Assembly: GCA_012730045.1 (NCBI GenBank)
Contig: JAAYBR010000114.1
Coordinates: 1 to 59,993 of the forward strand
Direction of reading: 5' to 3'
DNA length: 59,993 bases
DNA from: Candidatus Hydrogenedentota bacterium
Lineage (GTDB): Bacteria > Hydrogenedentota > Hydrogenedentia > Hydrogenedentales > CAITNO01
This document shows positions 13,895-47,294 of the stretch, in pieces (the stretch's first letter is position 1; every line of letters starts with the position of its first letter). The position numbers were made by a program, and so were the translations under genes. Under the pieces are notes generated by a model. The model ran no database searches. It saw only the letters and a program-made list of their open reading frames with translations, and was not told the origin of the DNA.

Positions 13895-13933
13895 ACCTGC
13901 ACTAGATCGGTTAGCCACCAGAGGAGACAAGAG

Positions 13934-24443: not shown

Positions 24444-24703
24444 GGCTTCCCCCCCCTGGCCACGTAGTACGCGAAGGCCACCGTTCCCAGGAACGACACG
24501 ACCGCGAGCACCAGGGCGTCGCGCATGTAGACGGGCTGGTCGAAGACCAGGGCGCACATGCAGATGATCCCCACCACCAGCGTGGAGATGAGGTCCAGCG
24601 CGACGACCCGGTCGGGGAGCGTCGGGCCGCGCAGGAGCCTTCCCACGGTCAGCAGCAGCGCGCCGCCCAGCAGCGCGGCGGCCATGTGCATCAAGGGGCT
24701 CAT
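24440..24703 (-). CDS. mnhF: Na+/H+ antiporter subunit MnhF/MrpF
   Basis: 87 residues with three transmembrane helices and the MrpF core [17 protein letters not shown]. Start ATG at 24703 overlaps the mnhE stop. Small subunit of the Mrp complex, implicated in sodium binding in some species. Confidence 0.93.
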
Positions 24704-26681: not shown

Positions 26682-27025
26682 GTGTCGGTGCCCTTCAGCT
26701 CGTCCACGTCGTCCGTGGGCACCACCTGGTGCGTCCGCTCCACCAGCGCCAGCAGAAAGGCCAGCACGCCGAACCCGATGACAATGGCCGTGAGGATGAG
26801 CGCCTGCGGCAGCGGGTCCGCCGTGTCCGGCGGCGCCGACAGCGCGCCCTCGGCGATGATGGGCGCGCGCGCGCGGGTGAGGCCGCCCGCCGTGAAGATC
26901 AGCAGGTTCGCGCCGTGGCCGAGCAGGGCCAGCCCGAGGATGATCTTCACCACATTGCGCTGCAGCAGCAGGTACACGCCCGCCGCGTACAGCCCGCCGA
27001 CCACCGCCGCGAAGAGAAGCTCCAT
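26678..27025 (-). CDS. mnhC: Na+/H+ antiporter subunit MnhC/MrpC
   Basis: 115 residues related to NuoK of complex I. Three helices, with the conserved [14 protein letters not shown] and the [17 protein letters not shown] segment. ATG at 27025 overlaps the mnhB stop by one base. Confidence 0.95.
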
Positions 27026-27453
27026 CACGGTTCCCCCCGGTCCACGTCGGCCATGGAGAAAATGATGAGCAGCGACACGCCGACGACGTCCAGGCACACC
27101 CCGGCGTCGAACAGCAGCGGCGTCCCCAGGGCCGCCACGCCCCCGCCGGGAAGCGGCACGTTCACCCAGTACGCCGTCAGGAAAGGCTCGCCCGCCAGCA
27201 GCCCCACGACTCCGGAGGCCAGCGCCAGCAGCAGGCCCGTGCCGATGAGATACCGGGGGTCCAGCCAAAGCCTCCGCCGCGCCTCGGCCGTGTCAAAGGC
27301 CAGCGCGTACAGCACAAAGGCCGACGCGGCCACCAGCCCGCCCGTGAACCCGCCGCCGGGCTCGTTGTGGCCGCTCATGAGCAGGAACACGGAGAGCAGC
27401 AGCAGGATGGGGAACATGTAGCGCGTGGCGGAGCGGAAGATGACGGAGTTCAC
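27025..27453 (-). CDS. mnhB: Na+/H+ antiporter subunit MnhB/MrpB
   Basis: 142 residues, four helices, with the diagnostic [15 protein letters not shown] and the C-terminal [11 protein letters not shown] motif. It begins within four bases of the mnhA end. As a separate gene it complements the MrpB-like tail domain already fused to the C-terminus of MnhA. Confidence 0.95.
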
Positions 27454-29980: not shown

Positions 29981-30061
29981 TCCATGCGCCTGTGCCTGCC
30001 GCCGGGCACCGATTCGGGGTATAATCAGGCGCATTAATCCGACATTCCCGGAGACCGGCCC

Positions 30062-32209
30062 ATGGAAGAGACGACCCGCCCCGACATCCCCGAATCCGCC
30101 GCCGAGCAGTCCCCCGCGCCCGCCGCGCCCCTCAAAGCGCCGGAGGGCGAGGTGTTTCAGGGGGTGCAGGCCGCTGTGGCCGCCGTGCTGGTGGGCGTGG
30201 CCGCGCTGTTGGTCCATTTTTCCGTCGTGCACGTCCCCTTTAGCGGTCCAGGCGATGACCTGCTCTGCGACACGCCGAAGGCCCACGCGCTCCTCACCGC
30301 GCCGGAAGCCTTCCCCCTGCTGCCCGACGCCCCGCTCACCGTGCTGGGGCTGTCCGCGGCGTGGCAGGCCGGCGGCGGCGGTGCGGGAACCGTCCGCGCG
30401 CTCGGCCTCTTCGCGCATGTTCTGGCGGCGCTCGGCGTCTTCCTGCTGGCACGCCGGGGGCGCCGTCCCGGGTCGGGCGAGGGGATCGCCCTCGGCACCG
30501 CCCTGCTCTTTGCCCTTTCCCCCGCCGCCGCGGGCGCGCTGTCCACCGCGCCGGGTCTGGCGCCCGTGCTGGGCGCGTCGCTGGCCGTGTGGGCCATGGT
30601 CTGTCTGGACCGCCTGTTTTCCGGCAAGAGCAGGTTTGCCGCCTTCGCCGCGGTGCTGGGCGCGGCCGCCTGCGCCGCCGACGCGACCGCCGCCCTGTTC
30701 TTGGTTGCGGCGCTGGCGGCAGCCCTGCCCGCCCTGCGGCACCGTGCGGGGCAGATCGGGTTCGGCGCGCTGCTGGCCATTTTGTGCGCGGCAACGGGCG
30801 CGGCCGCCCGCCTGGCCGCGGGCATGCCCCTTCCCGGGGCTCTCGGCCATGCCGCCGGCATCGCCGGGGTGAACCCCGCCCTTTCCGCGTATTACGCCTG
30901 GGCCGTCGCGGCCCTCGCGCTGGCGGCGGTGATCCACCGTCTTCCCCTGGGCACCCCCCGCCTCGTCCTCGCTGGGGCGGCGGGCGTTGGGGCCGTCATT
31001 CTTGGCGTTTTCAGTTTCCTCGACCTGGCGGCCCGGCAGAACGCCGACGCCGCGCTCCTCGCCGCAACGGAGGCCGCCCCGGACAGCCCCGGCGCCTGGG
31101 CCGCCCTCGCCCGGTACTGCGAACGCCAGACGGCATCCGCCAGCCTTGCGGACGATGCGCGCGCCGAATGGCGGGGCCGCGCGCGCGAGGCCTGGGTCCG
31201 CGCGGCGGAGACCGCGCCGGACAGGGCTGAATACCGCTGGAAGGCAATCCGCGCCGGCGTTCCGGAGATTCCGCCCGATCCGGCGGAGATCGCCGCCCTC
31301 CTCCTGCGCGCGCCGCACGCCGACTGGGCGGCGGACGCCGCGGCCCTTGCCGCCGGCCTGCGGCCCGCCGACACAATGGACGCCCCCGGCGCGGCCCGCG
31401 CCGCCCTCGACGGGATGGCCTACGCCGCCCGCCGCGCCCCGAACCGCGCCGACCTGCAGGGCGCCCGGGGCCTCCAGCTGTTCATGGCGGGAAACATGCG
31501 GGACGCCGCGCCGCTTCTGGCCGAGGCCGCTGCCGCCCTGCCCGAGGCCCCCTTTGCCTTTGCCGCCGAACCCGCCCAGAAGGCCGCCGAGCGTGTCGCC
31601 GCGCTGGAGAAAACGTCCCGCGAGAAACTGACGGCCAACCCGGGCGACCCGGCCGGGCATCTCGCCCGCGTGGAGTATGAACTCGCCTCGGGACGCCTCA
31701 CCCAGGCGTTGTACCTCGCCGCAAGCACCCACCGCCGGTTCCCCGAGAACGCCGACGCCACCCGTATCCTCGGCATGGTGCGCGCCCTGCGCGGCGAGGC
31801 CGACCGTTTTCTCGACGAGGCTGGCGACACCCTTTCCCCCGAGGCGTGGGACGCCCTCACCAAACAGGCCGCCTCCGCCAATGCCTGGGCCGCCGCCCTC
31901 CGCTACGCCGCCAAGACACCCCGCGCAGGGGGCGAATCGCCCGGGGAAAAACTCGCCGAAACCGCCCTCGCCCTCCGGCGGCCCGACCAGGCCGAACGCC
32001 TCCTCCGCGCCGCCCTTGAGGCCGACCCCGCCAACTGGAAACCCGCCCTCCGCCTCGCCGACATGGCCCGCGACGCCCAGCAGCCCGACGCCGCCGCCGC
32101 CTGGCTCGCCGAGGCCCAAAAACGCGGCGCCCCCGAGAGCGAACTCCAGCAGCGCGGCGGCGCCCCCGCCCCCCAGACCTTCGAGCCCGTCCGCACCATG
32201 ATCCAGTGA
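30062..32209 (+). CDS. Membrane protein with C-terminal TPR-like repeats
   Basis: 715 residues, extremely Ala-rich. After a Pro/Ala-rich cytoplasmic N-terminus, hydrophobic segments are found at about residues 37-58, 115-132, 143-165, 172-190, 200-222, 230-250, 275-292 and 300-320. The soluble part from about residue 330 consists of helical TPR-like units (SPGAWAALARYCE, NPGDPAGHLARVEYELASG, DPANWKPALRLADMARDAQ). The layout resembles O-mannosyltransferase-like/TMTC-type membrane TPR proteins, but I see no catalytic acidic motif. Function unknown. The ATG at 30062 has no strong ribosome site. Confidence 0.75.
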   Translation: MEETTRPDIPESAAEQSPAPAAPLKAPEGEVFQGVQAAVAAVLVGVAALLVHFSVVHVPFSGPGDDLLCDTPKAHALLTAPEAFPLLPDAPLTVLGLSAAWQAGGGGAGTVRALGLFAHVLAALGVFLLARRGRRPGSGEGIALGTALLFALSPAAAGALSTAPGLAPVLGASLAVWAMVCLDRLFSGKSRFAAFAAVLGAAACAADATAALFLVAALAAALPALRHRAGQIGFGALLAILCAATGAAARLAAGMPLPGALGHAAGIAGVNPALSAYYAWAVAALALAAVIHRLPLGTPRLVLAGAAGVGAVILGVFSFLDLAARQNADAALLAATEAAPDSPGAWAALARYCERQTASASLADDARAEWRGRAREAWVRAAETAPDRAEYRWKAIRAGVPEIPPDPAEIAALLLRAPHADWAADAAALAAGLRPADTMDAPGAARAALDGMAYAARRAPNRADLQGARGLQLFMAGNMRDAAPLLAEAAAALPEAPFAFAAEPAQKAAERVAALEKTSREKLTANPGDPAGHLARVEYELASGRLTQALYLAASTHRRFPENADATRILGMVRALRGEADRFLDEAGDTLSPEAWDALTKQAASANAWAAALRYAAKTPRAGGESPGEKLAETALALRRPDQAERLLRAALEADPANWKPALRLADMARDAQQPDAAAAWLAEAQKRGAPESELQQRGGAPAPQTFEPVRTMIQ

Positions 32210-32395
32210 CGGACACCTCCCCGCGGGGGGGCGCCACAGGCCGGGGCCCGACCGCCCGGAGGCTGGGACTTCGTTCCAGCGGCAATACGGTCCGGGCATA
32301 CACTCCTCTCAGGCCCAAGGCGCCGCCCTTCCCCGGCATCCCATACCTCCCATGTTTCCCATCGCTTTCGGAGAACCGCCGCCATGGAAAGGAAA

Positions 32396-32425
32396 CGCCC
32401 GCCGGAGCCGAAGCTCCGGCGGGCG
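32396..32425 (-). terminator. Intrinsic terminator of the giant subtilase gene
   Basis: A perfect 13-bp stem (32396-32408 with 32413-32425) and a 4-nt loop lie just past the end of the leftward giant gene. Read leftward, the stem is followed by TTTCCTTTCC. The rest of the 236-bp gap 32210-32445 shows no gene. Confidence 0.7.
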
Positions 32426-32445
32426 CGAAATGCGGGACGGTGGGC

Positions 32446-35400
32446 CTATTCCGTGCGGCGGCGCCCCAGGGCGGCCAGCAGCGTGAGCGCCAGCGCCCCC
32501 AGGAACACGTCGCCCAGACGCGACTTGAGGCCCTCCACCGTCATGTCGGCCTTGGAGCAGGTACACCCGCATCCGCAGCCCTTGACCCCCAGCTCTTCCT
32601 TGTCCAGCCGCCCGTCATCGTTGAGGTCGAGGGCGTCGAATATGGGCTGGGTGAGGGGGGGATAAACCCCGGCCGCCTCGTCGTACGAAAGCAGCCGGTC
32701 CCCGTTCGTGTCGGCGGACCGGAAGACCTCGGCCAGGGCGGCGCGCGCCGCCTCCACGGAGGCGGGGTCCGGACCCGTGGAGACCACCAGGGAAACGGCG
32801 CTGCCGGGGGCCGCCTGCGCGCCCGCCGCCGGACTCTGGCTGATGACGGCGCCCGCGACCACGGTGTCGCTGTAGGCCCCGGCGACGCCGCCCACGGTGA
32901 GCCCCGAAGTGGCGATGACCGACCGGGCCTGCGCCTCGGCCGTGCCGACCACGTCGGGAACGACCACCGGCTGCGGCCCCTTCGAGACCACCAGGGAAAC
33001 CGCCGAACCGGCGGCCGCGCTTGCGCCCGCTGAGGGCGTCTGGCTGACCACCTGGCCCGCCGGGACCGTGGCGCTGAAGGACTCAGTCACCGTGCCCAGG
33101 GTGAGCCCGGCCCCGCCGATCGCGGTGCCGGCCGCCGCCTGGGTCATGCCGACCACATTGGGCACAATCACCGGGGCGGGACCCTTCGAGACCACAAGGT
33201 TCACCGCCGAACCGGCGGAGGCGCTGGCACCCGCGACGGGCGTCTGGCTGATGACCTGGCCCTCCGGGACCGTGGCGCTGAAGGACTCCGTGACCGTGCC
33301 AACGGCAAGGCCGGCGCCTGTCAGGGCCGTCGCCGCGGCCGCCTGAGTCATGCCGACAACGTCCGGCACGGTGACTGCGGGCGCGGGACCCTTCGAAACT
33401 TCGAGGTCCACCGCCGTGCCGGGAGCAACGGACGCGCCCGCCGCCGGGGTCTGGCTCATCACCTCGCCCGCCGGCACCGTGGCGCTGAAGGACTCCGTGA
33501 CCGCGCCGACGGCAAGGCCGGCCCCTGTGAGGGCCGTCGCCGCGGCCGCCTGCTGCAGGCCCACCACGTCGGGAACAGTCACCGGTGCCGGACCCTTCGA
33601 GACCGTGAGGTTCACGGGGGTGTTTTCGGCGACCATCGCCCCGGCGGCGGGATTCTGGCTGATGACCTGGCCCGCGGGAACCGTGGCGCTGAAGGCTTCG
33701 GTTACCGTGCCCAGGGTCAGCTGCGCCGCAAGCAGAGCCGTCTCTGCCGCGGCCTGTGTCATGCCGACGACGTTGGGCACTTCCTTGTCGCCCGCGGGGG
33801 CCGGGCCCTTCGAGACTTCCAGGTTCACGGCGGTACCCGCCGCCACTTCGGCGCCCGCCGCCGGCGTCTGGCTCATCACCTCGCCCACGGGAACCGTGTC
33901 GCTGAAGGACTCCGTCACCGTGCCGACCGCCAAGCCCGCGCCCGTGAGCGCCGTCTCTGCGGCCGCCTGCTGCAGGCCCACCACGTTGGGAACCGTCACC
34001 GGCGCCGGACCCTTCGAGACCTCGAGGTCCACCGCCGTGCCGGGGGCGACGGACGTGTCCGCCGCCGGGGTCTGGCTCATCACCTCGCCCGCCGGGACCG
34101 TGGCGCTGTACGCTTCGGTCACCGCGCCGACGGCAAGACCCGCGCCCGTCAGGGCGGTCTCAGCGGCGGCTTGAGTCATGCCGACCACATTGGGCACAGC
34201 CACCGGCGCCGGGCCCTTGGAGACCGTGATGTTCACGGGGGTGTTTTCGGCGACCATCGCCCCGGCCGCCGGATTCTGGCTGATGACCTGGCCCACGGGC
34301 ACCGTGGCGCTGTACACCTCGGTCACCGTGCCCAGGGTCAGCTCGGCGGCCACCAGGGCCGACCCGGCCTGCGCCTGGGTCATGCCGACCACATTGGGCA
34401 CTTCCTTGTCTCCCGCCGGGGCCGGACCCTTCGAGACTTCCAGGTTCACGGCGGCGCCCGCCGCCACCTCGGCGCCCGCGGCGGGCGTCTGGCTCATCAC
34501 CTGGCCCAGAGGCGCCGTGTCGCTGAAGGACTCGGTCACCGTGCCGACGGTCAGGCCCGCGCCCGTGAGCGCGGTCTCCGCCACAGCCTGCGTCAGGCCG
34601 ACGACATCGGGCACCGTCACCGGCGCCGGACCCTTGGAGACCACCAGGTCCACGGACGTGCCGGGCGCGACCTCCACCCCGGCGGCGGGGTTCTGGCTGA
34701 TGACCTGGCCCGCCGGAACGGTCAGGCTGAACGCATCCGTCACCGCGCCGACGGCGAGGCCCGCGCCCGTGAGGGCCGCCTCGGCGGCCGCCTGGGTCAG
34801 GCCGACCACGTTGGGCACGGCCACCGGCGCCGGACCCTTCGAGATCGTGAGGTTCACGGGGGTGTTTTCGGCGACCATCGCACCGGCGGCGGGATTCTGG
34901 CTGATGACCTCGCCCGCGAGAACCGTGTCACTGTACACCTCGGTCACCGTGCCCAGCGTGAGCTGCGCCCCGGTCAGGGCGGACTCGGCCTGGGCCTGCG
35001 TCATGCCGACCACGTTCGGCACCTCTTTGTCGCCGCCCGGCGCCGGGCCCTTCGAGACTTCAAGGTCCACCGCCGTACCGGGCGCAACGGACGCGCCCGC
35101 CGTCGGGGTCTGGCTCATCACTTCGCCCACCGGCGCCGTCTCGCTGAACGACTCGGTGACCGTGCCGACGGCGAGGCCCGCGCCCGTGAGCGCGGATTCC
35201 GCAGCCGCCTGCTGGAGGCCGACCACATCCGGAACCGTCACCGGCGCCGGACCCTTCGACACTTCAAGGTCCACCGCGGTGCCGGGGGCCACCGACGCGC
35301 CGGCCGCCGGGGTCTGGCTCATCACCTCGCCCACCGGCGCCGTGGCGCTGAAGGACTCGGTCAGCGTGCCGACGGCGAGACCCGCACCCGTGAGCGCGGA

Positions 35401-38400
35401 TTCCGCAGCCGCCTGCTGGAGGCCGACCACATCCGGAACCGTCACCGGCGCGGGACCCTTCGACACTTCCATGTTCACCGCGGTGCCGGGGGCGACGGGC
35501 GTGCCCGCCGCCGGGGTCTGGCTCATCACCTCGCCCACGGGCGCCGTGGCGCTGAAGGACTCGGTCACCGTGCCGACGGCGAGACCCGCGCCCGTGAGCG
35601 CGGATTCCGCAGCCGCCTGCTGGAGACCGACCACGTTGGGAACCGTGACCGGCTCGGGGCCCTTGGAGACCTCGATGTCCACCGGGGTGCCCGGAAGCAC
35701 CGACGCACCGGCCGACGGATTCTGGCTCATCACCTCGTCCACGGGCACCGTGGCGCTCCAGGTCTCGGTGACTGTGCCAACGTTGAGGCTCGCGCCCATG
35801 ATCGCGGTCTCGGCGGCGAGCCGCTGGAGACCGACCACGGCGGGAACGAGAACGGGCTCGGGGCCCTTGGAGACCTCGAGGTCCACCGGGGTGCCCGGAA
35901 GCACCGACGCACCGGCCGACGGATTCTGGCTCATCACCTCGCCCACGGGCGCCGTGGCGCTAAAGGACTCGGTCACCGTGCCGACGGCAAGGCCCGCGCC
36001 TGTGAGCGCGGATTCCGCGGCCGCCTGCTGCAGGCCGACCACGGCGGGAACGAGAACGGGCTCGGGGCCCTTGGAGACCTCGAGGTCCACCGCCGAGCCG
36101 GGAAGCGCCAACGCGCCGGCCGCCGGCGTCTGGCTCATCACCTCGCCCACGGGCGCCGTGGCGCTGAAGGACTCGGTGACCGTGCCGACGGCAAGGCCCG
36201 CGCCTGTGAGCGCGGATTCCGCGGCCGCCTGCTGCAGGCCGACCACGTCGGGAACAGGAACGGGCTCGGGGCCCTTCGACACTTCGAGGTCCACGGCCGA
36301 TCCGGCAGGCACCACCGCGGCCGCAGCGGGATTCTGGCTGATGACCTCGCCGACGGGAACGGTGGCGCTCCAGGACTCCGTGACGGCGCCCACGGCAAGG
36401 AAGGCCTCCACCAGCGCCGTTTCCGCGGCGCCCTGCTGGAGGCCGACCACGTCGGGAACCGTCACGGGGCAGCCCGCGAAGCCGGTAAGGTCGGTCTCCA
36501 GGTAGTCGGCGGGCACACCCGCGCCCGCGGAGAGCCCCGCGAGCCCGTTCACCGCGTCCATGCCGAGATGGGTGAGGGCAATCCGCCCGTCGAAGTAGAG
36601 CTCGATCTGGAAGTTGTTGGAGTTGGTGGTGTCGTAGTTCGGGACATTGCTGAACGTGACGGCCACCCGGTCCACAAGCTGCTTCCAGGAGACGACGCCC
36701 TGGAATTCCGGGTCGAGGTCCCTGTAAAGGCCCGCAACGCGGGGCAGGCTGAAATGGTTTCCCAGGGATCCGGTGGCCGAACTGTCTCCGGCGGTGAAGG
36801 TGACATACCCGTTGGACCCGACGTAGAAGGTGGAGTACGCCGTCCCATACAGGTAGACCTCCACCCCTGCGGGCAGGTCCACCTGCACGGAGCTGTCATC
36901 CGTCAGAGTCAGGGGCGTGCCGCCCGTGGGATCGGTCGGGAAGGACACCGCCGGTGCGCTGCACACCCCGTAGAACAGGGGGGAGCTGTCGGGGGTGAAC
37001 AGCAGCGTCTGGTGCTGAATGTCCCAGTCATCCGCATCGAACAGCTCTGTGTGGTACTCCCTGCCGATCTCCAGCAGGATGTTCCGGGGAACCGAATGCG
37101 TGGTCGCTTCGTTGACGAAACCCACCATGGCCGGATACGTTCCCGCCGGCAGGGCGGTGACGCCGATGTTGAGGGCGACCAGCACCTCCACGGACGTCCC
37201 CGGGTCCAGCGTTCCGGAGGTCGGGGCCGCGTCCAGCCAGGTCTCGGAGGGGGTCAAATGCCAGGGCACCGGGGACGGGCCGGCATTGGTGAGCGTGTAG
37301 GACGCGGTCAGCGGGGCGAAGGGGCCGCCCGGCGCGCCGCGCGAGCGGAACACCGTGTCCGGCGTGACGCTGAGGGGCTCAAGCACCGTCAGGTCCAGGC
37401 TGCGGTACGTCTTGTACCCCGTGCCGGTGTTGGAGAAGGTGACCCTGCCCGTGTAGTCGGCGGGCACGAGGCTTTGCGCCGCGGCGTTGACGGACACCGT
37501 CACGTCCACCGTTCCGCCCGGATCCAGCGTGCCGGAGGCCGGGACAACATCCGCCCAGGCGGCATCGGCGGCCGCCTGCCAGGGCACGGCTGCCGCGCCC
37601 GCGTTGGTCAGGGTGTAGACCGCCTGCCCGGGGGCGAACGGTCCGCCGAAGTACCCTTCGGCGTCCAGCCCCGTCTCCGGCTGCGCGCGCAGGTCGTCCA
37701 CGCGCACCGTCAGCGTGCAGGGAACCGTCACGGACGGGTTGCCGGGGTCGTTGTGCTCGATCAGGATGTCCGCCGTGTACACGCCCGGAGCGAGCCCGGC
37801 CGCGTCAAAGGTGACGGTCTTGGCGGCGCAGGCGCCGCCGGCGACGGCCCCGGCCGACGGGTCTTGGACCTGCAGCCAATTCTGGCCGCCCGCAGTCCAG
37901 ACCAGCGCGTTCGCCAGCATGCGCGCGCCGTCCGTGGAGGCGTCCCAAAAGTCGGAGCTAACATCGCTGGAGGGCGGGTAGAAGCACACATCCGCGCGAA
38001 GCGCGCCATTGACATCGGCGACCGCCACGAGCGGGTGCCCGTCGGACCATTCCGCCACCAGGGTCGTCCCCGGGTACACAGAGGTCGTGGTGGGCCGGTA
38101 GGAGGAACTCCCTCCATTGAACGAGACCACTCCCGTCATGATCGGATGCCCCGGATCATGGACCGTACCCAGGGTGGCGGGGCTGTCGATGGTGGTTGGG
38201 CGGTCCATCAGCACGTACCCCCCGGAAACCCACCGGCCCTGCATCATGCAGCTGTTCAGGTTGTCGCCCACCTCGAACACGCTGCACACCACGCCGCCGC
38301 CGCCGGCCGCGTAGTCCGCCATGGCGTCGCCCAGGGCGGTGGCGTCGGCGTAGGGCATGTTGCCGTAGACAAGCACTGCGTCAAAGGCCTGGAGTTCGGC

Positions 38401-41400
38401 CAGTGTCGGCGTGACGGCGCCGAGGTTGAAGGTCGCGACGCTGCCGAACTGCCCGGTGGAGATCAGCTTGGCCTGGACGTCCGACAGATACGCCGTGTCG
38501 TCAGCCCCATAGACAGCCACGTTCACGGTGGAGGCCGTGGTGATGCCCGCCTCGGCGGCGGTCATGACACTGGCGACCTGCGCCGGGTCGGACAGGGTGT
38601 CCGCCGCCTTGGTCCCGGCGGCGGCGGCATTGCCCGCGCCCTTTATTGACAACGGCCCGTCCAGGATGCCGCTGCGCTCGATGGCCGTGTCCACGGCGGC
38701 GCGCACTCGGTCCCCGCCGCCCTGCTTGTCCAGGACCGGTTCGTTGTACTGGACGCTGATGGTGTACTCCAGCCAGTCCTCGCCGTCGTTGCAGAGGTTG
38801 AGCGCGGGGTCGAAGGTGAACACGGCCTCCTGGGACAGCGTCGCCTCGAGCGAGGCGGGCGCCTCGATCCGCGCGATGGGCGGGTCGGGAATCGCCGTAA
38901 GCTCCACGTCCCGGGTGATGGAGACGCTGGTGGCGGTGTTGGTAAAGGACACCACCGCCGTGTGCACCCCGAAGGGCAGCGCGTTGGCGTTGCTGTTCAG
39001 GGAGACCACCACCGACGTGGAGGTGCCCGCCGCCAGAATCCCGGACGAAACGGAGACGTCCAGCCAGGCTTCCGAGAGGCCGACGGTCCAGTTCACGTCA
39101 CTGCCGCCCGCGTTGTTGAGCAGGTACTCCTTGCCCGTCGGGTCAAAGGGCCCGCCGGTGCCGCCGGAGGAGACCAGAGGCTCCACCGGGCTGACCCACA
39201 GGTCGTCCAGGACGCCGTTGCCGCTCAGCAGCACCTCCGTCACCGGCTCGTCCAGGTCGTTGGTGGCGATCAGGACCGAGTCGGTGAACGGCCCCTCGCC
39301 GGTCGGGGTGAAGTTGACGTCGAACGTGGTGAATCCGCCGGGATTGAGCGTCAGCGGAAACGAGGGAACCCCGGAGAGGGAGAAGGCGCTCGCCTCCGCC
39401 CCGACGGGCGTGATGCGCACCTCGCCAAAGGCGCAGGAGCCGGCGCCGCCAAACCCGTCCACGATGCACACGCCGGCGTATCCTGCGCCGGAAATGTCCG
39501 AGTCGGTCGTGCTCCAGACGGGCACGCCGTTGAAGATCACCTCCAGCAGGCTTCCATCGGCCGAGAAACGGACCGTGTTCGGCGCCTCTCCGGTATTCAG
39601 TGCGCCGGAACTGGTGCAGCTGAGATCAGTGAATGAGCCGGAAACCACCTTCAGCACACAGTAATCCCCGTCCGGGCTCATCACCAGCACATACCCGGTG
39701 CCCGCGTCGGCCCCCGGATTGAACGCGAAGTCGGCGCTGGCGCGCAGGAACAGGCCCCAGTACAGGTCGCTGTTCGGCGCAATCAGCCGCGCGTCCGCCT
39801 CAATGGAGCCGTTCTGCATGGTCATGCCCGAGTAGTACGACTGGGGGTCGTTTCCGGAGCCGCTGGAGAGAACATACTCGCCCGCAACCACCTCGGTGCT
39901 GCCGGGCTCGGTCGGCACCCATCCGGGGGCGGACCCGCTCTCGAAGTCCTCCGTGTAGGTGAAGCCCACCAACGAGACGCCCTCCAGGGAAAGGTCATGG
40001 ATGGGATCCACATTGGTCACGGTGATCTGGCCCGTTTCGGTGACGCCCACCATCACGTTGCCAAGGGGCATCTGCAGGTCGTCTGCGGGAAGGACGCTGT
40101 CCGTCACTTGGACCTCGCCAGGAAGGGGGATCACCTCCAGGGCCACGTCCCGCGTGGTGGTGTACGCGCTCCCAGTGTTCGCGAAGGTGACCGTGTCCGT
40201 GTAGGTGCCGGGCGTCAGGGTGAAGGCTGCCGTGTTGATGGTCACCTCCACGGCGGTGGACGAGAACGCCCCCAGAGTCCCGCCCGCCGGGGAGACCGTC
40301 ACCCAGGGCTGCGTCGGCGCCGCCGTCCAGGAGATGTCCGCCCCGCTGTGGTTGGTCAGTGTGTAGGTGGTGCCGACCGGGGAGAACAGGCCCCCCTCGT
40401 AGCCCGAGGAGTCCAAGCCGTATTCCGGATCCAGCACGAGATAGTCGTCCAGCCCGGTTCCCGTGACGGCGACAGAAACCTCCGGCTCGTCGGCGTCATT
40501 GGTCTGGATCAGCACGGACGACGCGTCCGGACCGGCCGCAGCCGGGTTATAGACCACGTCGAAGGCCACCGAGGATCCGGGGGCCACCGTGTAAGGAAGC
40601 GTCGGCATGTTGCTGAGGCTGAAAGAGCTGCCCGACGTCTCCATGCCGGCGGGCGCGCCCGTTTCAGCCCTGGGCCCCTTGTACACGGGGAACGCCGAGG
40701 CCGGTGGGGCGAGGGAGGCGGAGCCGCCGGTGACAGGGTGCGCGTTGCGCCAGGCCTGCTCCGCGCTGATCCCCGCGCCCGTGGACAGCGCGAACCCCGG
40801 AGGGCCGGCGGTCACATCATCGAACGAGTGCACGGGGTCATTCCCCCCGGGGCTGTAGCCGGCAAGCGCGATGTGCCCCGCCGAGGGGGACGGATCCGTC
40901 CCGGTCCACGCCAGGGTTTCGTTCAGGAACACGTTGATGGCGCTTCCCTCCACGCTCAATCTGACGGTGTTCGTCACCGGATCCAGCAGCGCCGAAGGTG
41001 TCCAGTCCTGAATCCAGGTGAAGGTGGCGCCGTCAAACCGGATCACCCAGAAACTGCCTTCGGCGCTGATGCCGACGCCCAGGGCGGACCCGGAGACCTC
41101 CGGCACGAAATCGGAACTGGCGCGGACAAACAGGGCGTGGGTGTTGGTGTTGACGCCGGCCCTGCCGAGCGTGGCCACCACGTCCAGGTCGCTCCAGGAT
41201 GCCGCGGTGTACACCGCGGACATGTAGTAGGCGGACGCCGTCTGCGCGCGGTAGTGGCCGTCCACCACGTCCCACATGGCGTCCTCGTATTCCACCCATC
41301 CCTGGGCGAGTCCGTCGCTGAAATCCTCTCGGTAGAAAGCCCCAAAAAGGATGTCCGAAATCACCAGATCGTGCGCGCCGCTGGTGTTGGACACGGTGAT

Positions 41401-44400
41401 GTTCTCTGTCCGGGGAGACCCCACCAACTGATACCCGTAGGGCATGGCGAGGTCGTCGGCGGGGGCAATGGTGTCCGTCACCTCGATCTCGCCGGGCACG
41501 GCCTCCACCTCCAGCGCGACGCTTCGGGCGGCCGAGTAGCCGGAGCTGTCATTCGAGAACGTGACGGTGTCGGTGTAATTTCCGGGCGTCAGGGTGTCGG
41601 CGGTGCCGCCGATGCAGACGTTCACGGTGACGCAGCTGTAGGGGTCCAGCGCGCCGGAGGAGGGCGTCACGGTGACCCAGGGCGCGCTGAAGACCGCACT
41701 CCAGTTCAGGATGCCGCCCTCATTGTTGCAGATGTCATAGGTCTGGCACTCGGGTGTGAACGGCCCGCCGACATACCCGAAGGCGTCCAGGTCCGTTCCC
41801 GTGCTCACCGACATCGGCTCGACAGCGGTCAATTCCACGGGCCTGGTCGAAGTCACCCCGTTTCCGGTGTTCACAAAGCTGACCGTGTCCGTATACGTTC
41901 CGGTGGCCAGCGCGGCCGCGTCCGGCGTGAGGGACACGGTGACGGTGACCGATCCGCCGCCGGCAAGGGTGCCCGACGCGGGGGAAACGGACAGCCACGG
42001 CTGTGTGACGGCGGCGGTCCAGTTAAGGTCGCCCGCCCCGTTGTTGGTCAGGGTATAGTCCGCCGAGGACGGCCCAAACGGCCCGCCCTGGGGGCCGTAG
42101 GGGGAGAAGCCGTCGGACGGGTCCACCGCCAGATCGTCGGCGATGCCGTTTCCGGTGACGGCCACCGCGACCTCGGGCTCGTCGTCGTCGTTGGTGACGA
42201 TGCTCACCGTGGAGTCCGCCGCCCCCAGACGCTGGGGGGCGAAGGTCACGTCAAAGGTGAGGGCCCCGCCGGGGGGCACGGCATGGGGCAGGGCGGGAAG
42301 CCCGCCCAGCGTGAAGGGGGACACGGCGGTGGCCACCCCTCCAGTGGGGGCGGAATCCGCCGATTTGGGCCCGTCATACGCGGGGAAGGCCGATGCGGGA
42401 GGTGCCTGCCCGGTGCCGTAACCAGAAACGGGGTGCGCGTTGTACCAGGCCTGCTCCGTGCTGATCTTGCCGCCGGTGCCGGCGATTTCTCCGGGCAGCC
42501 CCACCCGCACATCATCGAAAATCTGCACGGGATCGTTCCCGCCCCAGCTCCACCCGCCGAGGGCGACATGCCCGGCACCCGGGCTGGGGTCGGTGCCCGT
42601 CCAGGCCAGGGATCCGTTGAAGTAAACACTGATGTCTGAACCGTTCACACTCAGCGTGACGAGGTTGTCCACGGGGTTGAGAAGGGCGGAGGATGTCCAA
42701 CCCTGGATCCAGGTGATGCTGCCGTCGGTGTAGCGGATGACCCAGAACTCGCCATCCGCCACGCCCACGCCGAGGCCGGACCCAGAGACTTCGGGGATGA
42801 AGTCGGAGGTGGCGCGCACAAACACGGACTGGGTGTTCGAGTTAATGCCTGTCCAGCTGAAGGCGACGGAGGCGTCCAGATCGGTCCAGGTGTCCCCTGT
42901 GTAGCGGGAGCTCATGAACAAGCTCGAGCTGCTTGACGCGGAATACTTCCCGCCGGAAACGCTCCACCAGGCGTCCTCGTATTCGACCCAGTCCTGGGCC
43001 AGTCCGTCTTCAAAGTCCTCCATATAGAGAAGTCCGCCCACATTTATGTCGGAGATGACGAGGTCGTGGGCGCCGTCCGTGTTGCTGACGGTGATCTGTT
43101 CGGTGCGGGCGAGGCCGTGGATCACATCGCCGAAAGGCATGGCAAGATCATTGTCCGGGAGAATGGAGTCCGTGACGACGATCTCCCCCGGGATGGCCGT
43201 GATCTCCAGGGCCACACCGCGGGCCACGGCGTGCCCCGAATCCGTGTTCGTGAACAGCACGGTTCCCGTGTGGCTGCCGACGGGAAGGGTCTCCGCCGTG
43301 GCGTTGAGGGAGACGGTGACGTCGGACTCCGCGCCGGCGGGGAGGGTCCCGGTCGCGGGAGAGACGGTGAACCAGGGTTCCGCCGTGCCGGCGGTCCAGT
43401 GCAGGTCGGCCGCCCCGTTGTTGGCCACGGTGTACACCTTGTCCGCCGGGGTGAAGGGGCCGGACACATGCCCGGAGGAGGAAAACCCCTCGCCGGGGGT
43501 CACCAGCATGGGGTCGCAGGAAGAATAGGCGCTCAGGTCGCTTTCGACATAGTCCACAGGGACGCCGTTGCCCTCCGACAGCCCGCAGATGGCGTCTGTG
43601 GCGTCCATGGCGAGATGGGTGACCGTGACGCGCCCGTCGAAGAACAGCTCAAACTGGAAGTTGTTGGAGTTGGTGGTTCCGTAGACGGGAACATTCTCAA
43701 AGGTCACCGCCACGCGGTCGGCGAGCTGCCTCCAGGAAACGGTGCCCGCAGACCCCGGATTCAGGTCCCTGAACAGCCCCGACACGCGGGGAAGGGCGAA
43801 TTGGTTCTCAAGAGACCGCGAGGACGCGCTCGACCCCGCGCCGAAGGTGAGGTAGCCGTTGGACCCGACATAGAAGGTGGTGTAGTCCACCCCGTACAGG
43901 GAGACATGCTGGCCCGCGCCGATGTCCACCTGGGCAAAGTTGTCGTCGCCCACCGCCAGGGCCGTGCCGCCCGTCGGGTCGGTCGGGAACGCCGAGGCCG
44001 CCTCCCGGCAGGCGTGGTAATAACTCAGCGACCCGTCGGGCGTGAAAAACAGCGTCTGGCCTTCGAGGTCAAAGTCGGCGCTGTCAAACCATTCCGTGAA
44101 ATAGTCGGGGCTTTCCGTCGTGGTGAAGTTGAAGCAGCCGCTTCCGGGGGACACGGTCTGGTTGCCCGCGGCGTCCTCCGCCTCGAAGGAGAAGTAGTAG
44201 GGCGTCAGCGGCGTGAGACCGGAAAGGGCGAAGGTGTGGGTGGTCCCCGGAGTCCAGTCGGTCATGTCAATGGCGGTGTCGCCGCAGACGGTGCCGCAGA
44301 GCACCCGCCCGGTCGTGGGCGTGTCGGTGGTGAAGGTGAGCGTCGCCGTGGTGGACTTCACCTCGAGGGCCTGCTCCCCGCCGATGACCGGGGGCGTGCA

Positions 44401-46776
44401 GTCCGTCACCGCCGTGACGGTCACGGTCACGTTGGTGCCGCCCATTCCGTCGTCCGCGTCCACATAGGACGCCGTCAGCGTGTCCCCGCCGGCAGTCTGG
44501 AGGGTTCCGGGGGCGTTTGCGGCGGAGAGCGGCAGGCTCCCCGTGAAGGTGGCCGTGTGCATGCCGGTTTCGGTGAGCACGACGGTCTCCCCGGCGGGTT
44601 CCGTGGTGGAGGCCACGGTCACGGTGACCGTTTCCACCGTGCCGGGGTCCGCGTCCAGGTCGCAGTCGTTGACCGTGACGCCCAGCGTGTCCTCGCAGCG
44701 GTAGGCGGCCCGGTCCAGGGTGAGGATGCCCGCGGAGGTGCAGGCATACAGGGCCGGGGAGGCGGCCAGGGAGAACACCTGCGGGCCCGACGGCACGCTG
44801 GTGCCGGCCACGCTGATGATCCAGTTCCCCTCGGCCGGGGCGTTCACGAACACCTGCTCGATGTTGTTCCGGTGGTCCGCCTGCGTCTGCACAGCGGGGG
44901 CGGAGGGGTTGGCCGGGTCCAGCGTCCAGGGGTAGTGGACGGTGGTTCCGTCGGGGGCGGTCAGGGTCAGGTCCAGGTCGTTGACCAGCTCGGGGATGGT
45001 GTTCACCGCGCCGGGCGCGTCGTCCCAGGCGACGGTGACCTTGAGAAAGGGATCGCCCGCCGTCACGGGCACGATGTAGAACATCGCCTCGCCCTGGTCC
45101 AGCGAGTCCTCGCGGAAACTGCCGCCGCGCATGAAGTCAATGGTGTCCGTCACGCGGACGGAGCCGTAGCCGAACAGGTAGTCCGGCCCGACGTTGCCCA
45201 GGTCCACGGCGTTGTGGGCGAGGAGGACCTTCAGCGTGGAGTTGCGCGGAAGGGGGTCGGCGGGGTGAAGGACCTTGAAATCCTGCAGGATCAGGGCGCA
45301 CAGGCCGGTCACGGTGGGCGCGGCCATGGAGGTGCCGCACATGGTGGTGTAGGCGGTGTCGCCGGTGGAGCTGCACGAGGTCACGGCGCCGTCGTCGTCG
45401 CTCTGGCAGCCGGGGCCGGAAACGTCCGGCTTGATGCGCCCGTCGTCCGTCGGCCCCCAGCTGGAAAAGGAGGTCATGGCCTCGTCGTTGGAGTTCACGG
45501 CGCCCACGGTGATGTGGTTCTTCGCGCAGGCGGGCGGCGCGGTGGTGAGGTATTCCGTGCCGCAGCGGCCGTTCCCGCGCTCGTTGCCGTTCGCCCAGAC
45601 GATGCGCATGGGACTGCCGAGGCTGCCCCGGACAAGCGCGTCAATGACCTGGTCCGTCACGCCGTAGTCGCCCTCGTATTCGCAGGGAAAGCCGTTCGCG
45701 GCCGTGTTCGTGCCGATGGAGTTGTTGGCGATCACCGCGCCGTAAGTGTTGACGGCGGCGGTGTAGTCCGCCTCAATGTCGCCCGGGTTGGTGTACAGGA
45801 AGGTGCCCGAGCCGTCATCCTCGAAGCCGTAGGACTGGATGGTCACGCCGGGGGCCATGCCCCGGTAGGTGCCGCCGCTGGCCGCGCCGCTGCCGCCGAC
45901 CGTGCCCGCAACGTGCGTGGCATGGTCGGCCATTCCGGAGGCGTCGCGCACGGTCAGCCGCCCGCCGAAGTCCAAATGCGTGCCCCGCGCCGTGCCGCCG
46001 TCGTACACGAGCACGTTCACCCCCGTGCCGTCCAGGTTGTACGGCGCCGTCTGCGCGGCGTCCGCCTGCGTGATCACCCGGTTGGAATTGTTGACGGGTC
46101 CCATCTTCGGGAGCACCGGCTCGATCCACTGGACGCAGTCCTCCGCCGCCAGCGCGGCGACATTCGCCGCCGGCACCCACACGACGGCGGCGTTCACGCT
46201 GGCGATGGCGTCCTTCAGCAGGCCCCCGTGGCGCGCCACGGCCTCCGCCCCCGCCGTCGCCTGGTCCACGTCCCCATGAAACACCACGCACACCGCGGCG
46301 GTCAGCACCTCCTCGCCGCCCTTCTCCCCCGAACCGTCCAGAACATACGCGGGCAGGGAGGCGATGGCGTGTTCCGGCCAGTCGCCCGCCGCCACGCGGG
46401 GGTGCAATTTATGGGCGGGATCAATCTCCTCCGCCGACACCAGTCCGGCGGCCGTCGCCGCGTCCGCCGCCTTGTCCGCCCCCGAAAGCGCCGCGAAATA
46501 GGCGTTGCTCCCCAGATAGGCGAGCAGTGTCACGCCCCTTGCTTCAAGCTGTTGACGGACGCCGGGGGCCAGCGGCGCGGCGAACTGAAGCACCACATGA
46601 CGCGGCGCCGGATTTGCCAGCACGGCCGCAGGGGAACCGGCCGCCTTCTGCGCGGCGGCGTTCTTCCACTCGATCGGCCCCGGAGAGGCGCCCTGCGCCG
46701 CCGCGGGAAGCGGCATGGCCGCCATGGCCGCTGTGAGGACCAGCACAAAAGACAAACTCCGTCCGAGAATACCCAT
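32446..46776 (-). CDS. Giant multidomain secreted subtilase with 18 PASTA repeats
   Basis: 4776 residues in one uninterrupted frame. ATG at 46776 follows AGGGAG; an earlier in-frame start at 46848 lies just downstream of the promoter -10 box and lacks such a site. Signal peptide about 1-27 (ends AAAQG). The S8 protease domain has its triad at about Asp259 (VYDGG), His285 (HATHVAGT) and Ser483 (GTSMAAP), followed by a P-domain-like beta sandwich. Then come a fibronectin-like domain, two copies of a beta-sandwich unit (FTPDGS/FTPDSS; about 900-1090 and 3240-3430), several BACON-like, LamG-like and anchor-D-like modules, and an amidotransferase-like fold near 2740-2970. The 18 PASTA repeats span about 3438-4672. 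A pair of EF-hand loops (about 4689 and 4717) precedes CGCGCTC (4734-4740), a hydrophobic helix and RRRTE. Probably exported and anchored at the surface; substrate and role unknown. Confidence 0.9.
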   Translation of the reverse strand: MGILGRSLSFVLVLTAAMAAMPLPAAAQGASPGPIEWKNAAAQKAAGSPAAVLANPAPRHVVLQFAAPLAPGVRQQLEARGVTLLAYLGSNAYFAALSGADKAADAATAAGLVSAEEIDPAHKLHPRVAAGDWPEHAIASLPAYVLDGSGEKGGEEVLTAAVCVVFHGDVDQATAGAEAVARHGGLLKDAIASVNAAVVWVPAANVAALAAEDCVQWIEPVLPKMGPVNNSNRVITQADAAQTAPYNLDGTGVNVLVYDGGTARGTHLDFGGRLTVRDASGMADHATHVAGTVGGSGAASGGTYRGMAPGVTIQSYGFEDDGSGTFLYTNPGDIEADYTAAVNTYGAVIANNSIGTNTAANGFPCEYEGDYGVTDQVIDALVRGSLGSPMRIVWANGNERGNGRCGTEYLTTAPPACAKNHITVGAVNSNDEAMTSFSSWGPTDDGRIKPDVSGPGCQSDDDGAVTSCSSTGDTAYTTMCGTSMAAPTVTGLCALILQDFKVLHPADPLPRNSTLKVLLAHNAVDLGNVGPDYLFGYGSVRVTDTIDFMRGGSFREDSLDQGEAMFYIVPVTAGDPFLKVTVAWDDAPGAVNTIPELVNDLDLTLTAPDGTTVHYPWTLDPANPSAPAVQTQADHRNNIEQVFVNAPAEGNWIISVAGTSVPSGPQVFSLAASPALYACTSAGILTLDRAAYRCEDTLGVTVNDCDLDADPGTVETVTVTVASTTEPAGETVVLTETGMHTATFTGSLPLSAANAPGTLQTAGGDTLTASYVDADDGMGGTNVTVTVTAVTDCTPPVIGGEQALEVKSTTATLTFTTDTPTTGRVLCGTVCGDTAIDMTDWTPGTTHTFALSGLTPLTPYYFSFEAEDAAGNQTVSPGSGCFNFTTTESPDYFTEWFDSADFDLEGQTLFFTPDGSLSYYHACREAASAFPTDPTGGTALAVGDDNFAQVDIGAGQHVSLYGVDYTTFYVGSNGYLTFGAGSSASSRSLENQFALPRVSGLFRDLNPGSAGTVSWRQLADRVAVTFENVPVYGTTNSNNFQFELFFDGRVTVTHLAMDATDAICGLSEGNGVPVDYVESDLSAYSSCDPMLVTPGEGFSSSGHVSGPFTPADKVYTVANNGAADLHWTAGTAEPWFTVSPATGTLPAGAESDVTVSLNATAETLPVGSHTGTVLFTNTDSGHAVARGVALEITAIPGEIVVTDSILPDNDLAMPFGDVIHGLARTEQITVSNTDGAHDLVISDINVGGLLYMEDFEDGLAQDWVEYEDAWWSVSGGKYSASSSSSLFMSSRYTGDTWTDLDASVAFSWTGINSNTQSVFVRATSDFIPEVSGSGLGVGVADGEFWVIRYTDGSITWIQGWTSSALLNPVDNLVTLSVNGSDISVYFNGSLAWTGTDPSPGAGHVALGGWSWGGNDPVQIFDDVRVGLPGEIAGTGGKISTEQAWYNAHPVSGYGTGQAPPASAFPAYDGPKSADSAPTGGVATAVSPFTLGGLPALPHAVPPGGALTFDVTFAPQRLGAADSTVSIVTNDDDEPEVAVAVTGNGIADDLAVDPSDGFSPYGPQGGPFGPSSADYTLTNNGAGDLNWTAAVTQPWLSVSPASGTLAGGGSVTVTVSLTPDAAALATGTYTDTVSFVNTGNGVTSTRPVELTAVEPMSVSTGTDLDAFGYVGGPFTPECQTYDICNNEGGILNWSAVFSAPWVTVTPSSGALDPYSCVTVNVCIGGTADTLTPGNYTDTVTFSNDSSGYSAARSVALEVEAVPGEIEVTDTIAPADDLAMPYGYQLVGSPRTENITVSNTSGAHDLVISDILFGAFYREDFSDGLAQGWVEYEDAMWDVVDGHYRAQTASAYYMSAVYTAASWSDLDVVATLGRAGVNTNTHALFVRASSDFVPEVSGSALGVGISAEGSFWVIRFDGATFTWIQDWTPSALLDPVTNTVRLSVEGSAINVFLNETLAWTGTDPSPSAGHIALAGYSPGGNDPVHSFDDVTAGPPGFALSTGAGISAEQAWRNAHPVTGGSASLAPPASAFPVYKGPRAETGAPAGMETSGSSFSLSNMPTLPYTVAPGSSVAFDVVYNPAAAGPDASSVLIQTNDADEPEVSVAVTGTGLDDYLVLDPEYGLDSSGYEGGLFSPVGTTYTLTNHSGADISWTAAPTQPWVTVSPAGGTLGAFSSTAVEVTINTAAFTLTPGTYTDTVTFANTGSAYTTTRDVALEVIPLPGEVQVTDSVLPADDLQMPLGNVMVGVTETGQITVTNVDPIHDLSLEGVSLVGFTYTEDFESGSAPGWVPTEPGSTEVVAGEYVLSSGSGNDPQSYYSGMTMQNGSIEADARLIAPNSDLYWGLFLRASADFAFNPGADAGTGYVLVMSPDGDYCVLKVVSGSFTDLSCTSSGALNTGEAPNTVRFSADGSLLEVIFNGVPVWSTTDSDISGAGYAGVCIVDGFGGAGSCAFGEVRITPVGAEASAFSLSGVPSFPLTLNPGGFTTFDVNFTPTGEGPFTDSVLIATNDLDEPVTEVLLSGNGVLDDLWVSPVEPLVSSGGTGGPFDPTGKEYLLNNAGGSDVNWTVGLSEAWLDVSVSSGILAAGTSTSVVVSLNSNANALPFGVHTAVVSFTNTATSVSITRDVELTAIPDPPIARIEAPASLEATLSQEAVFTFDPALNLCNDGEDWLEYTISVQYNEPVLDKQGGGDRVRAAVDTAIERSGILDGPLSIKGAGNAAAAGTKAADTLSDPAQVASVMTAAEAGITTASTVNVAVYGADDTAYLSDVQAKLISTGQFGSVATFNLGAVTPTLAELQAFDAVLVYGNMPYADATALGDAMADYAAGGGGVVCSVFEVGDNLNSCMMQGRWVSGGYVLMDRPTTIDSPATLGTVHDPGHPIMTGVVSFNGGSSSYRPTTTSVYPGTTLVAEWSDGHPLVAVADVNGALRADVCFYPPSSDVSSDFWDASTDGARMLANALVWTAGGQNWLQVQDPSAGAVAGGACAAKTVTFDAAGLAPGVYTADILIEHNDPGNPSVTVPCTLTVRVDDLRAQPETGLDAEGYFGGPFAPGQAVYTLTNAGAAAVPWQAAADAAWADVVPASGTLDPGGTVDVTVSVNAAAQSLVPADYTGRVTFSNTGTGYKTYRSLDLTVLEPLSVTPDTVFRSRGAPGGPFAPLTASYTLTNAGPSPVPWHLTPSETWLDAAPTSGTLDPGTSVEVLVALNIGVTALPAGTYPAMVGFVNEATTHSVPRNILLEIGREYHTELFDADDWDIQHQTLLFTPDSSPLFYGVCSAPAVSFPTDPTGGTPLTLTDDSSVQVDLPAGVEVYLYGTAYSTFYVGSNGYVTFTAGDSSATGSLGNHFSLPRVAGLYRDLDPEFQGVVSWKQLVDRVAVTFSNVPNYDTTNSNNFQIELYFDGRIALTHLGMDAVNGLAGLSAGAGVPADYLETDLTGFAGCPVTVPDVVGLQQGAAETALVEAFLAVGAVTESWSATVPVGEVISQNPAAAAVVPAGSAVDLEVSKGPEPVPVPDVVGLQQAAAESALTGAGLAVGTVTESFSATAPVGEVMSQTPAAGALALPGSAVDLEVSKGPEPVLVPAVVGLQQAAAESALTGAGLAVGTVTESFSATAPVGEVMSQNPSAGASVLPGTPVDLEVSKGPEPVLVPAVVGLQRLAAETAIMGASLNVGTVTETWSATVPVDEVMSQNPSAGASVLPGTPVDIEVSKGPEPVTVPNVVGLQQAAAESALTGAGLAVGTVTESFSATAPVGEVMSQTPAAGTPVAPGTAVNMEVSKGPAPVTVPDVVGLQQAAAESALTGAGLAVGTLTESFSATAPVGEVMSQTPAAGASVAPGTAVDLEVSKGPAPVTVPDVVGLQQAAAESALTGAGLAVGTVTESFSETAPVGEVMSQTPTAGASVAPGTAVDLEVSKGPAPGGDKEVPNVVGMTQAQAESALTGAQLTLGTVTEVYSDTVLAGEVISQNPAAGAMVAENTPVNLTISKGPAPVAVPNVVGLTQAAAEAALTGAGLAVGAVTDAFSLTVPAGQVISQNPAAGVEVAPGTSVDLVVSKGPAPVTVPDVVGLTQAVAETALTGAGLTVGTVTESFSDTAPLGQVMSQTPAAGAEVAAGAAVNLEVSKGPAPAGDKEVPNVVGMTQAQAGSALVAAELTLGTVTEVYSATVPVGQVISQNPAAGAMVAENTPVNITVSKGPAPVAVPNVVGMTQAAAETALTGAGLAVGAVTEAYSATVPAGEVMSQTPAADTSVAPGTAVDLEVSKGPAPVTVPNVVGLQQAAAETALTGAGLAVGTVTESFSDTVPVGEVMSQTPAAGAEVAAGTAVNLEVSKGPAPAGDKEVPNVVGMTQAAAETALLAAQLTLGTVTEAFSATVPAGQVISQNPAAGAMVAENTPVNLTVSKGPAPVTVPDVVGLQQAAAATALTGAGLAVGAVTESFSATVPAGEVMSQTPAAGASVAPGTAVDLEVSKGPAPAVTVPDVVGMTQAAAATALTGAGLAVGTVTESFSATVPEGQVISQTPVAGASASAGSAVNLVVSKGPAPVIVPNVVGMTQAAAGTAIGGAGLTLGTVTESFSATVPAGQVVSQTPSAGASAAAGSAVSLVVSKGPQPVVVPDVVGTAEAQARSVIATSGLTVGGVAGAYSDTVVAGAVISQSPAAGAQAAPGSAVSLVVSTGPDPASVEAARAALAEVFRSADTNGDRLLSYDEAAGVYPPLTQPIFDALDLNDDGRLDKEELGVKGCGCGCTCSKADMTVEGLKSRLGDVFLGALALTLLAALGRRRTE
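32764..36466 (-). repeat. Tandem array of 18 PASTA-coding repeats
   Basis: Eighteen in-frame units of about 204-213 bp each code for a 67-71 residue PASTA domain that starts VxVPxVVG and ends VSKGPxP. Three units begin with a KEVPNVVGMTQ variant preceded by GGD or AGD and recur every third unit, showing duplication of a three-unit block. Identity between neighbours is high at DNA level, so assembly or recombination errors in copy number are possible. Confidence 0.9.
38890..43495 (-). repeat. Triplicated composite module inside the giant gene
   Basis: Three successive blocks carry the same order: a BACON-like unit with a YxGGPFxP motif, a VLPxxDLxMPxG strand, a LamG-like unit opening EDFxxGxAxxWV, and an anchor-D-like unit with a TNDxDEPExxVxxTGNG-type motif. 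The first two LamG-like units share long runs (AWTGTDPSP, GGNDPV); the third is more distant. The second block has an extra BACON-like unit. Confidence 0.75.
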
Positions 46777-46856
46777 GACCGTTCTCCCTACATTGCACAA
46801 TCCGCGAGACAGACTGGCGTGACGGAACCGAACCGACACACCAGGCACTTATGGGA

Positions 46857-46885
46857 ATCTTACTCTGCAATCGGGAAAAAGGCAA
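46857..46885 (-). promoter_or_regulatory. Promoter of the giant subtilase gene
   Basis: Read leftward, TTGCCT (46885-46880) and TAAGAT (46862-46857) are spaced by 17 bp, directly after a nine-T tract that could act as an UP-like element. The expected leader is about 75 nt. Confidence 0.6.
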
Positions 46886-47218
46886 AAAAAAACTGCGTCT
46901 TCCCGCCTGGATGCCCCCTCCCCGCCAACCGCACGCGTCCAAACTCCGACTCTTCCATACTCCTTGAAAAAATCTATTCTATTTTCACCAATAGGCTTAT
47001 GCCTGCAACCAATAACAACTCCTCCTTTAGGGCGATGCGACACCGCCGTTTGGCACTCCTCGGAGGCATTCGCACTGGGAAAGCCCTGCTAGGGAGTCCG
47101 AGAGCGGCGCGCGCAAATACCGGGGAAGCGGAGGAACAAGGAAAAGGCACCCCGGCTGCCACACGGAAATCGGCGTTCGGCGTGTAGCCCGTCCGATGAT
47201 TCGGGGGAATCGCACGGG
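46886..47218. other. Non-coding, AT-richer intergenic stretch
   Basis: The 518-bp divergent gap between the giant gene and rhaB contains the two predicted promoters at its ends. In between there is an AT-rich part (46960-47030) and an ordinary GC-rich part. I see no gene, RNA or clear operator. Short open frames in it have no coding character. Confidence 0.4.
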
Positions 47219-47248
47219 TTGTATTTCGGCGGGGCATTCCTCTATCTT
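47219..47248 (+). promoter_or_regulatory. Possible promoter of the rhamnulokinase gene
   Basis: TTGTAT (47219-47224) and TATCTT (47243-47248) are spaced by 18 bp, about 47 bp before the rhaB start. Only a moderate match. Confidence 0.35.
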
Positions 47249-47294
47249 CTTTCCTGACCGTTAAGAAGACGGGCAACCGGCAACGGAGGACAGT

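Follow-up and report, generated by a model that had tools for sequence, protein, structure and literature searches.

A giant stalked subtilase from Candidatus Hydrogenedentota carries a candidate Cys-type C-terminal sorting tail

How might a secreted protease of several thousand residues be held at its cell, and is its C-terminal end peculiar to one protein or part of a more general scheme? This question is raised by a gene of Candidatus Hydrogenedentota (genome 4.46 Mb, 97.5% complete) that lies in a window of 59,993 nucleotides, i.e. the whole stretch of DNA that was analysed. The gene runs on the minus strand, which the initial annotation did not give, from an ATG at 46776 to the stop codon at 32446-32448, encodes 4776 aa with zero internal stops and thus confirms the unbroken 14.3 kb frame described earlier. 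A Shine-Dalgarno-like GGAGAA is located 5' of this ATG, and no such stretch is found 5' of an alternative GTG at 46848. As the opposite strand also holds long spurious frames of up to 1492 aa, frame length alone is insufficient as proof of a gene; it is the domains and the homologues at 84% and 61-63% identity that establish the gene as real. It stands alone, with a divergent FGGY sugar-kinase gene upstream (47295-48761, plus strand) and a convergent gene for a TPR protein downstream (30062-32209, plus strand). Of the promoter and terminator previously assigned to it, the terminator was recovered and is the best in the region, whereas there are 0 sigma-70-like sites in 30000-48500. Also adjoining on the downstream side, 24440-29750 encodes MrpF, two Proton_antipo_M proteins, MbhD and MbhE, i.e. 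subunits of an Mrp/Mbh-type antiporter.

The features of the gene and its product are collected in Table 1. The Pfam search of the translation recovered Peptidase_S8 (7.5e-37), 18 PASTA stretches (3.7e-269), seven BACON_2 and five HYDIN-type Ig stretches and one EF-hand; the second EF loop is legible in the sequence, and the EF pair is clear in a paralogue. The signal peptide, the S8 triad and the end composed of Cys, helix and RRR are all legible as well, and the earlier description of a secreted subtilase with a long stalk and an anchor-like C-terminal end is supported. Predicted-structure confidence is too low for use, with a pLDDT of 34 for the unnamed beta module and of 44 for the ThuA-like region, which is kept in the orthologues from the other genome of the genus (G001, 82%) and from G057 of family f5 (46%).

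Table 1. Features of the subtilase gene and its product (window coordinates).
Feature	Position	Strand	Basis
Whole gene, 4776 aa	32446..46776	-	frame and homologues
Signal peptide MGILGRSLSFVLVLTAAMAAMPLPAAAQ, aa 1-28, Sec/SPase I type, no lipobox	46693..46776	-	read from sequence
Propeptide-like region, aa 29-230	46087..46692	-	no Pfam family; 41-82% identity in orthologues
Subtilase catalytic domain, aa ~231-545, D258/H285/S483	45142..46086	-	Pfam, phmmer, residue check
C-terminal beta domain, KP-43-type, aa ~546-690	44707..45141	-	phmmer alignment to 1wmd
Ig-like and Fn3-like modules, aa 691-900	44077..44706	-	weak Pfam matches; kept in orthologues
Beta-rich module copy 1, aa 901-1088	43513..44076	-	no Pfam family; 59-60% identical to copy 2
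Tandem BACON / HYDIN-ASH (choice-of-anchor D) / LamG-like modules, aa 1089-2589	39010..43512	-	Pfam, NCBIfam
ThuA/GATase1-like stretch (weak), aa 2590-2960	37897..39009	-	ThuA E=0.15 only
Two more BACON-like modules, aa ~2961-3240	37057..37896	-	Pfam, orthologues
Beta-rich module copy 2, aa ~3241-3444	36445..37056	-	last few residues overlap first PASTA repeat
18 PASTA repeats, aa 3440-4671, 66-71 aa each	32764..36459	-	mean pairwise identity 71%
EF-hand pair, aa ~4681-4730	32587..32736	-	Pfam, alignment
CGCGCTC motif, aa 4734-4740	32557..32577	-	alignment of tails
C-terminal membrane helix LGDVFLGALALTLLAALG, aa 4754-4771	32464..32517	-	alignment of tails
Basic end RRRTE, aa 4772-4776	32449..32463	-	translation
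Intrinsic terminator, 14-pair stem then TTCCTTT	32395..32426	-	terminator search

From the propeptide to the beta domain the protein is, as judged from its sequence, a KP-43-type subtilase and a predicted protease. The best solved relatives of the catalytic domain in phmmer are KP-43 (1wmd, E=2.6e-42; chain residues 4-431 aligned) and SubHal (5fax). The Asp/His/Ser triad lies, as in KP-43, in a subtilase fold with a C-terminal beta domain, and both domains align end to end with these relatives. However, the solved chains comprise ~430 residues, whereas the window subtilase adds ~4,100 residues of stalk and tail. With PASTA Ser/Thr kinases and penicillin-binding proteins it has the PASTA repeats in common, but it contains neither a kinase domain (no kinase family in the Pfam search) nor a transpeptidase domain, its 18 repeats are highly alike, and PASTA is used behind unrelated heads. 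The equivalog model for PASTA Ser/Thr kinases, NF033483, nevertheless scores 1089 on the subtilase (cut-off 450) via PASTA alone; automatic naming could therefore label PASTA-rich giant secreted proteases as kinases. A literature search for PASTA together with subtilase yielded no relevant paper.

The C-terminal end is shared with other proteins. In the same genome, nine proteins carry the EF-hand/Cys/helix/RR tail on unrelated heads, i.e. the S8 domain, two trypsin-like domains (Trypsin_2, 1e-20 and 7e-20), an M6/InhA-like domain, a WD40 propeller, a beta-helix/PMP protein, a large protein without Pfam match and two heads that are cut or unclassified. Signal peptides can be read in 7/7 of those with intact N-termini, and all nine contain PASTA repeats (2-18), which end 104-114 aa from the C-terminus. 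Invariant in the alignment of the nine tails are C64, C66, K68, R79-L-G-D82, F84-L85, L90 and L93. Among 67 examined tails a Cys precedes the helix in 67 and a Gly-Cys in 66, as compared to ~24% of 30-residue stretches of tail proteins expected by composition to contain Cys, the count being biased upward because the 67 partly are seeds of the tail model. The last Cys is a median of 14 residues from the helix (5-95%: 11-18), 98% of the 67 have a basic end, and 13 contain a single Cys. All tails sit at the very C-terminus. EF-hands precede 47 of 62 tails, and as the others follow GE-rich or other linkers, the tail proper consists of Gly-Cys, spacer, helix and basic end. Tails that lack EF-hands, and those of distant families in which little else is conserved, also show Gly-Cys at fixed spacing. 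The M6/InhA-like head (L049, G000:C130) apparently lacks the HExxH zinc motif, with VARHLAGYLG in its place, and thus may be inactive.

A tail-only model (47 positions, 28 seeds) was used to search 68 genomes of the phylum and gave 321 matches, summed over genomes, in 34 of them, including all 17 genomes of family f1 and members of several other families. The sister family f5, which served as same-order negative control, gave 0 matches in 25 genomes, and its EF-hand matches belong to plain EF-hand proteins that lack the tail. In f2, f4 and f8, Gly-Cys/helix/basic tails of a more diverged kind are legible. When GTDB as a whole was scanned with the C-terminal ~100 aa, five loci were confirmed, all from Candidatus Hydrogenedentes/Hydrogenedentota; as the scan required an exact RLGD[LV]FL-type pattern, it locates close relatives and says nothing on distant ones. 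A plasmid search gave no match to the tail, NCBIfam holds no model for it, and no paper was found in the open-licence literature on Hydrogenedentes with PASTA, EF-hand, CTERM or exosortase. The tail is shared across the phylum and is the more novel part as compared to the domain order; it is a candidate for a phylum-restricted Cys-type C-terminal sorting tail.

The orthologues suggest that head and end have had different histories. The first ~650 aa of the mature subtilase are 84% identical in G001 and 61-63% identical in family f10 (G036, G031 twice, G025) and f5 (G057). Orthologues from several families of the phylum keep the order of the N-terminal ~1,200 aa (propeptide-S8-Ig-Fn-beta module-BACON), but their C-terminal halves vary by family. 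The G001 orthologue carries 13 PASTA repeats and likewise ends in the EF-hand/Cys tail, the join of head and tail being unproven since the tail sits on a second contig. Duplicated SELLRxIQFFN EF-like modules form the end of the orthologues of G036 and G031, a dockerin-like EF pair that of G033, and VPVISGAGLLVAMAAALATGAFALRRR (VPVISGAGLL...RRR), an exosortase-type tail, that of G057. As head order is kept and the C-terminal half is not, the exact domain order is a genus-level elaboration of an older subtilase core whose C-terminal end is exchangeable; the suggestion that this exact architecture might mark a defined family is not supported. When plasmids were searched with the N-terminal half, the matches were distant S8 proteins only (<60% identity). 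Four subtilases from f10 and f11 (L196, L197, L198 and L202) carry at their end a duplicated Cys-containing DxNxDxxVxLSELLRxIQFFN module, which is weakly EF-hand-like and below every Pfam cut-off. The G001 copy of the subtilase (L194, G001:C536) shows an in-frame TAG near its N-terminus, reflecting a pseudogene, an assembly error or a later start.

Does the tail belong to a known class of sorting signals? MYXO-CTERM combines an invariant cysteine, a helix and an arginine-rich end and is cleaved Cys-dependently by the CPBP protease MrtX; only in myxobacteria has an enzyme for Cys-containing C-terminal sorting tails been demonstrated (PMC11980579). The window-type tail likewise places an invariant Cys within a short signature, which is followed by a membrane helix and an arginine-rich, basic end. 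Both occur on dozens of proteins per genome, largely within one phylum, and their carriers are mostly hydrolases and adhesins with signal peptides; the heads of the tail proteins, mostly hydrolases or repeat proteins, also resemble those of MYXO-CTERM proteins (PMC11980579). In contrast to MYXO-CTERM, the window-type spacer has charged residues (K-RLGD), an EF-hand pair often precedes, and the nearest CPBP protease of the genome is far below all Mrt cut-offs. Seven tails compared to the NCBIfam CTERM models gave none above cut-off even at E<=10 and did not reach the curated MYXO-CTERM cut-off (TIGR03901), which the published TraA tail, our positive control, passes (20.6, cut-off 20). The resemblance is one of form, and we do not claim membership. 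GlyGly-CTERM, the rhombosortase target, is likewise tripartite and sits on trypsin-like and other secreted proteases, but its signature never contains Cys (PMC3237569). This identity was rejected as Cys is present in the tail and the only rhomboid of the genome (L137), with GlpG-like scores only, reaches 35.8 with the rhombosortase model (cut-off 84). PEP-CTERM/IPTL-CTERM tails are also tripartite, an exosortase is present in the genome, and one subtilase orthologue carries such a tail; the window tail, however, lacks the Pro-containing signature at the helix start.

Candidate processing enzymes in the genome comprise six CPBP proteins, the GlpG-like rhomboid and one XrtH-like exosortase. The best CPBP protein scores 37.0 (MrtJ, cut-off 75), 32.7 (Mrt_core, cut-off 100) and 20.5 (MrtX, cut-off 180). 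No myxosortase MrtX, MrtC or MrtP was found to co-occur with the tail, and the best CPBP protein of the genome does not follow the tail distribution. L131, the CPBP protease closest to the myxosortase core, was rejected as general tail enzyme as clear orthologues are present in only 4 of the 34 tail-bearing genomes. The exosortase (L138, G000:C92:356-1282) contains the Cys/Arg/His exosortase residues and scores 61.4 with TIGR04178 (cut-off 23) and 80.1 with XrtH (cut-off 86). The gene downstream of it encodes a membrane protein of no known family that is fused to the exosortase in G002 (L145).

Taken together, we favour with some confidence the view that the protein is a stalked protease of the cell surface, held there by a C-terminal sorting-type tail of an undescribed, Cys-containing kind, which would act in analogy to MYXO-CTERM. 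Sec would export the subtilase, and the precursor would stay in the inner membrane through its helix, the basic end facing the cell interior. By the same analogy, an intramembrane protease would cut off the helix, and lipidation or another form of anchoring at the conserved cysteine would bring the protein to the cell surface. Beta-sandwich modules and 18 PASTA repeats would form the stalk that holds the KP-43-type subtilase, and the EF-hand pair, GC/CxC motif, ~14-residue spacer, membrane helix and basic end would constitute a reusable display tail. We infer surface location, cleavage and the use of the cysteine; what we observe is the gene with its catalytic residues, a tail that recurs on unrelated heads with its conserved geometry and its distribution over lineages, and the replacement of one end by another among the orthologues of the subtilase. 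It is also rather probable that the subtilase is a broad-type protease and belongs to a group of proteases and repeat proteins that share this tail for display, probably serving to feed on external or polymer-associated protein.

It speaks against our model that no processing enzyme follows the tail distribution (the closest CPBP protein: 4 genomes). Might the XrtH-like exosortase process the Cys tail? Its catalytic residues are in place, it passes the signature model and is just below the XrtH cut-off, it is found in 30 of the 34 tail-positive genomes, a shortfall for which draft-genome gaps could account, and it is more diverged or absent in the tail-less f5; moreover, a model search found no IPTL-type targets in the genome. 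Yet exosortases occur in 50 of the 68 genomes, including 20 of the 34 tail-negative ones, and at least two proteins of the same genome, L218 (G000:C7) and L273 (G000:C2), found among 1.57 Mb examined for other C-terminal tails, end with the Pro-type PVAGLGGLA...RRRR, relatives carrying VPALS...RRR, the usual kind of exosortase target, so that we consider this role unlikely. G030 (95% complete) has 19 tails and no exosortase match and is a candidate for loss with tails kept. Alternatively, the tail may be an ordinary uncleaved C-terminal membrane anchor that was spread together with the EF-hand by domain duplication, its cysteines forming disulphides or binding metal. No dedicated protease was found for the tail, the nine tails of the genome are indeed homologous, EF-hand included, and such an anchor would give a similar pattern, but it leaves the fixed Gly-Cys unexplained, which persists without EF-hands and in distant families. 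In addition, the 13 tails with a single Cys are unable to form an intra-tail disulphide, and an uncleaved 4.7k-residue protease in the inner membrane would face only the periplasm, as outer-membrane proteins (FadL type) are present. We therefore regard a plain anchor as rather improbable.

The remaining alternative concerns the PASTA array. PASTA binds muropeptides in some kinases, and the initial annotation had taken the repeats as pointing to peptidoglycan; on this reading the protein would be a wall-attached protease attacking other bacteria. This idea is weakened by the fixed place of the arrays before the tail behind any head, by the GE-rich linkers that can replace them in relatives, and by their varying number, 18 or 13 in the two congeneric species and differing among the nine tail proteins, with 128 matches in the genome, and we consider it very unlikely. 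Since PASTA follows the stalk and not the head in where it lies and in how many copies it has, it is here best read as a stalk and not as a peptidoglycan sensor.

More generally, and only tentatively, Hydrogenedentota may possess their own surface-protein sorting system, in which an EF-hand or GE-linker and a Gly-Cys-helix-Arg tail would be processed by an as yet unrecognised peptidase and anchored via the cysteine; the same cell would run its exosortase system separately. A tail that is confined to one phylum, has hundreds of members and is absent from NCBIfam would list the surface proteins of uncultured Hydrogenedentota and would make the number of independent Cys-type sorting systems directly testable. 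L275 (G000:C2), a 1965-aa frame, ends in GCAPGTASGTSWADAAVMLAAAGLLALAGRRRRAAGRG, possibly a third tail type. The window itself encodes a second PASTA-containing protein (13841-18382) with a WD40 propeller, beta-helix stretches and one PASTA repeat, which carries OmpL47-like repeats at its C-terminus and is without the Cys tail.
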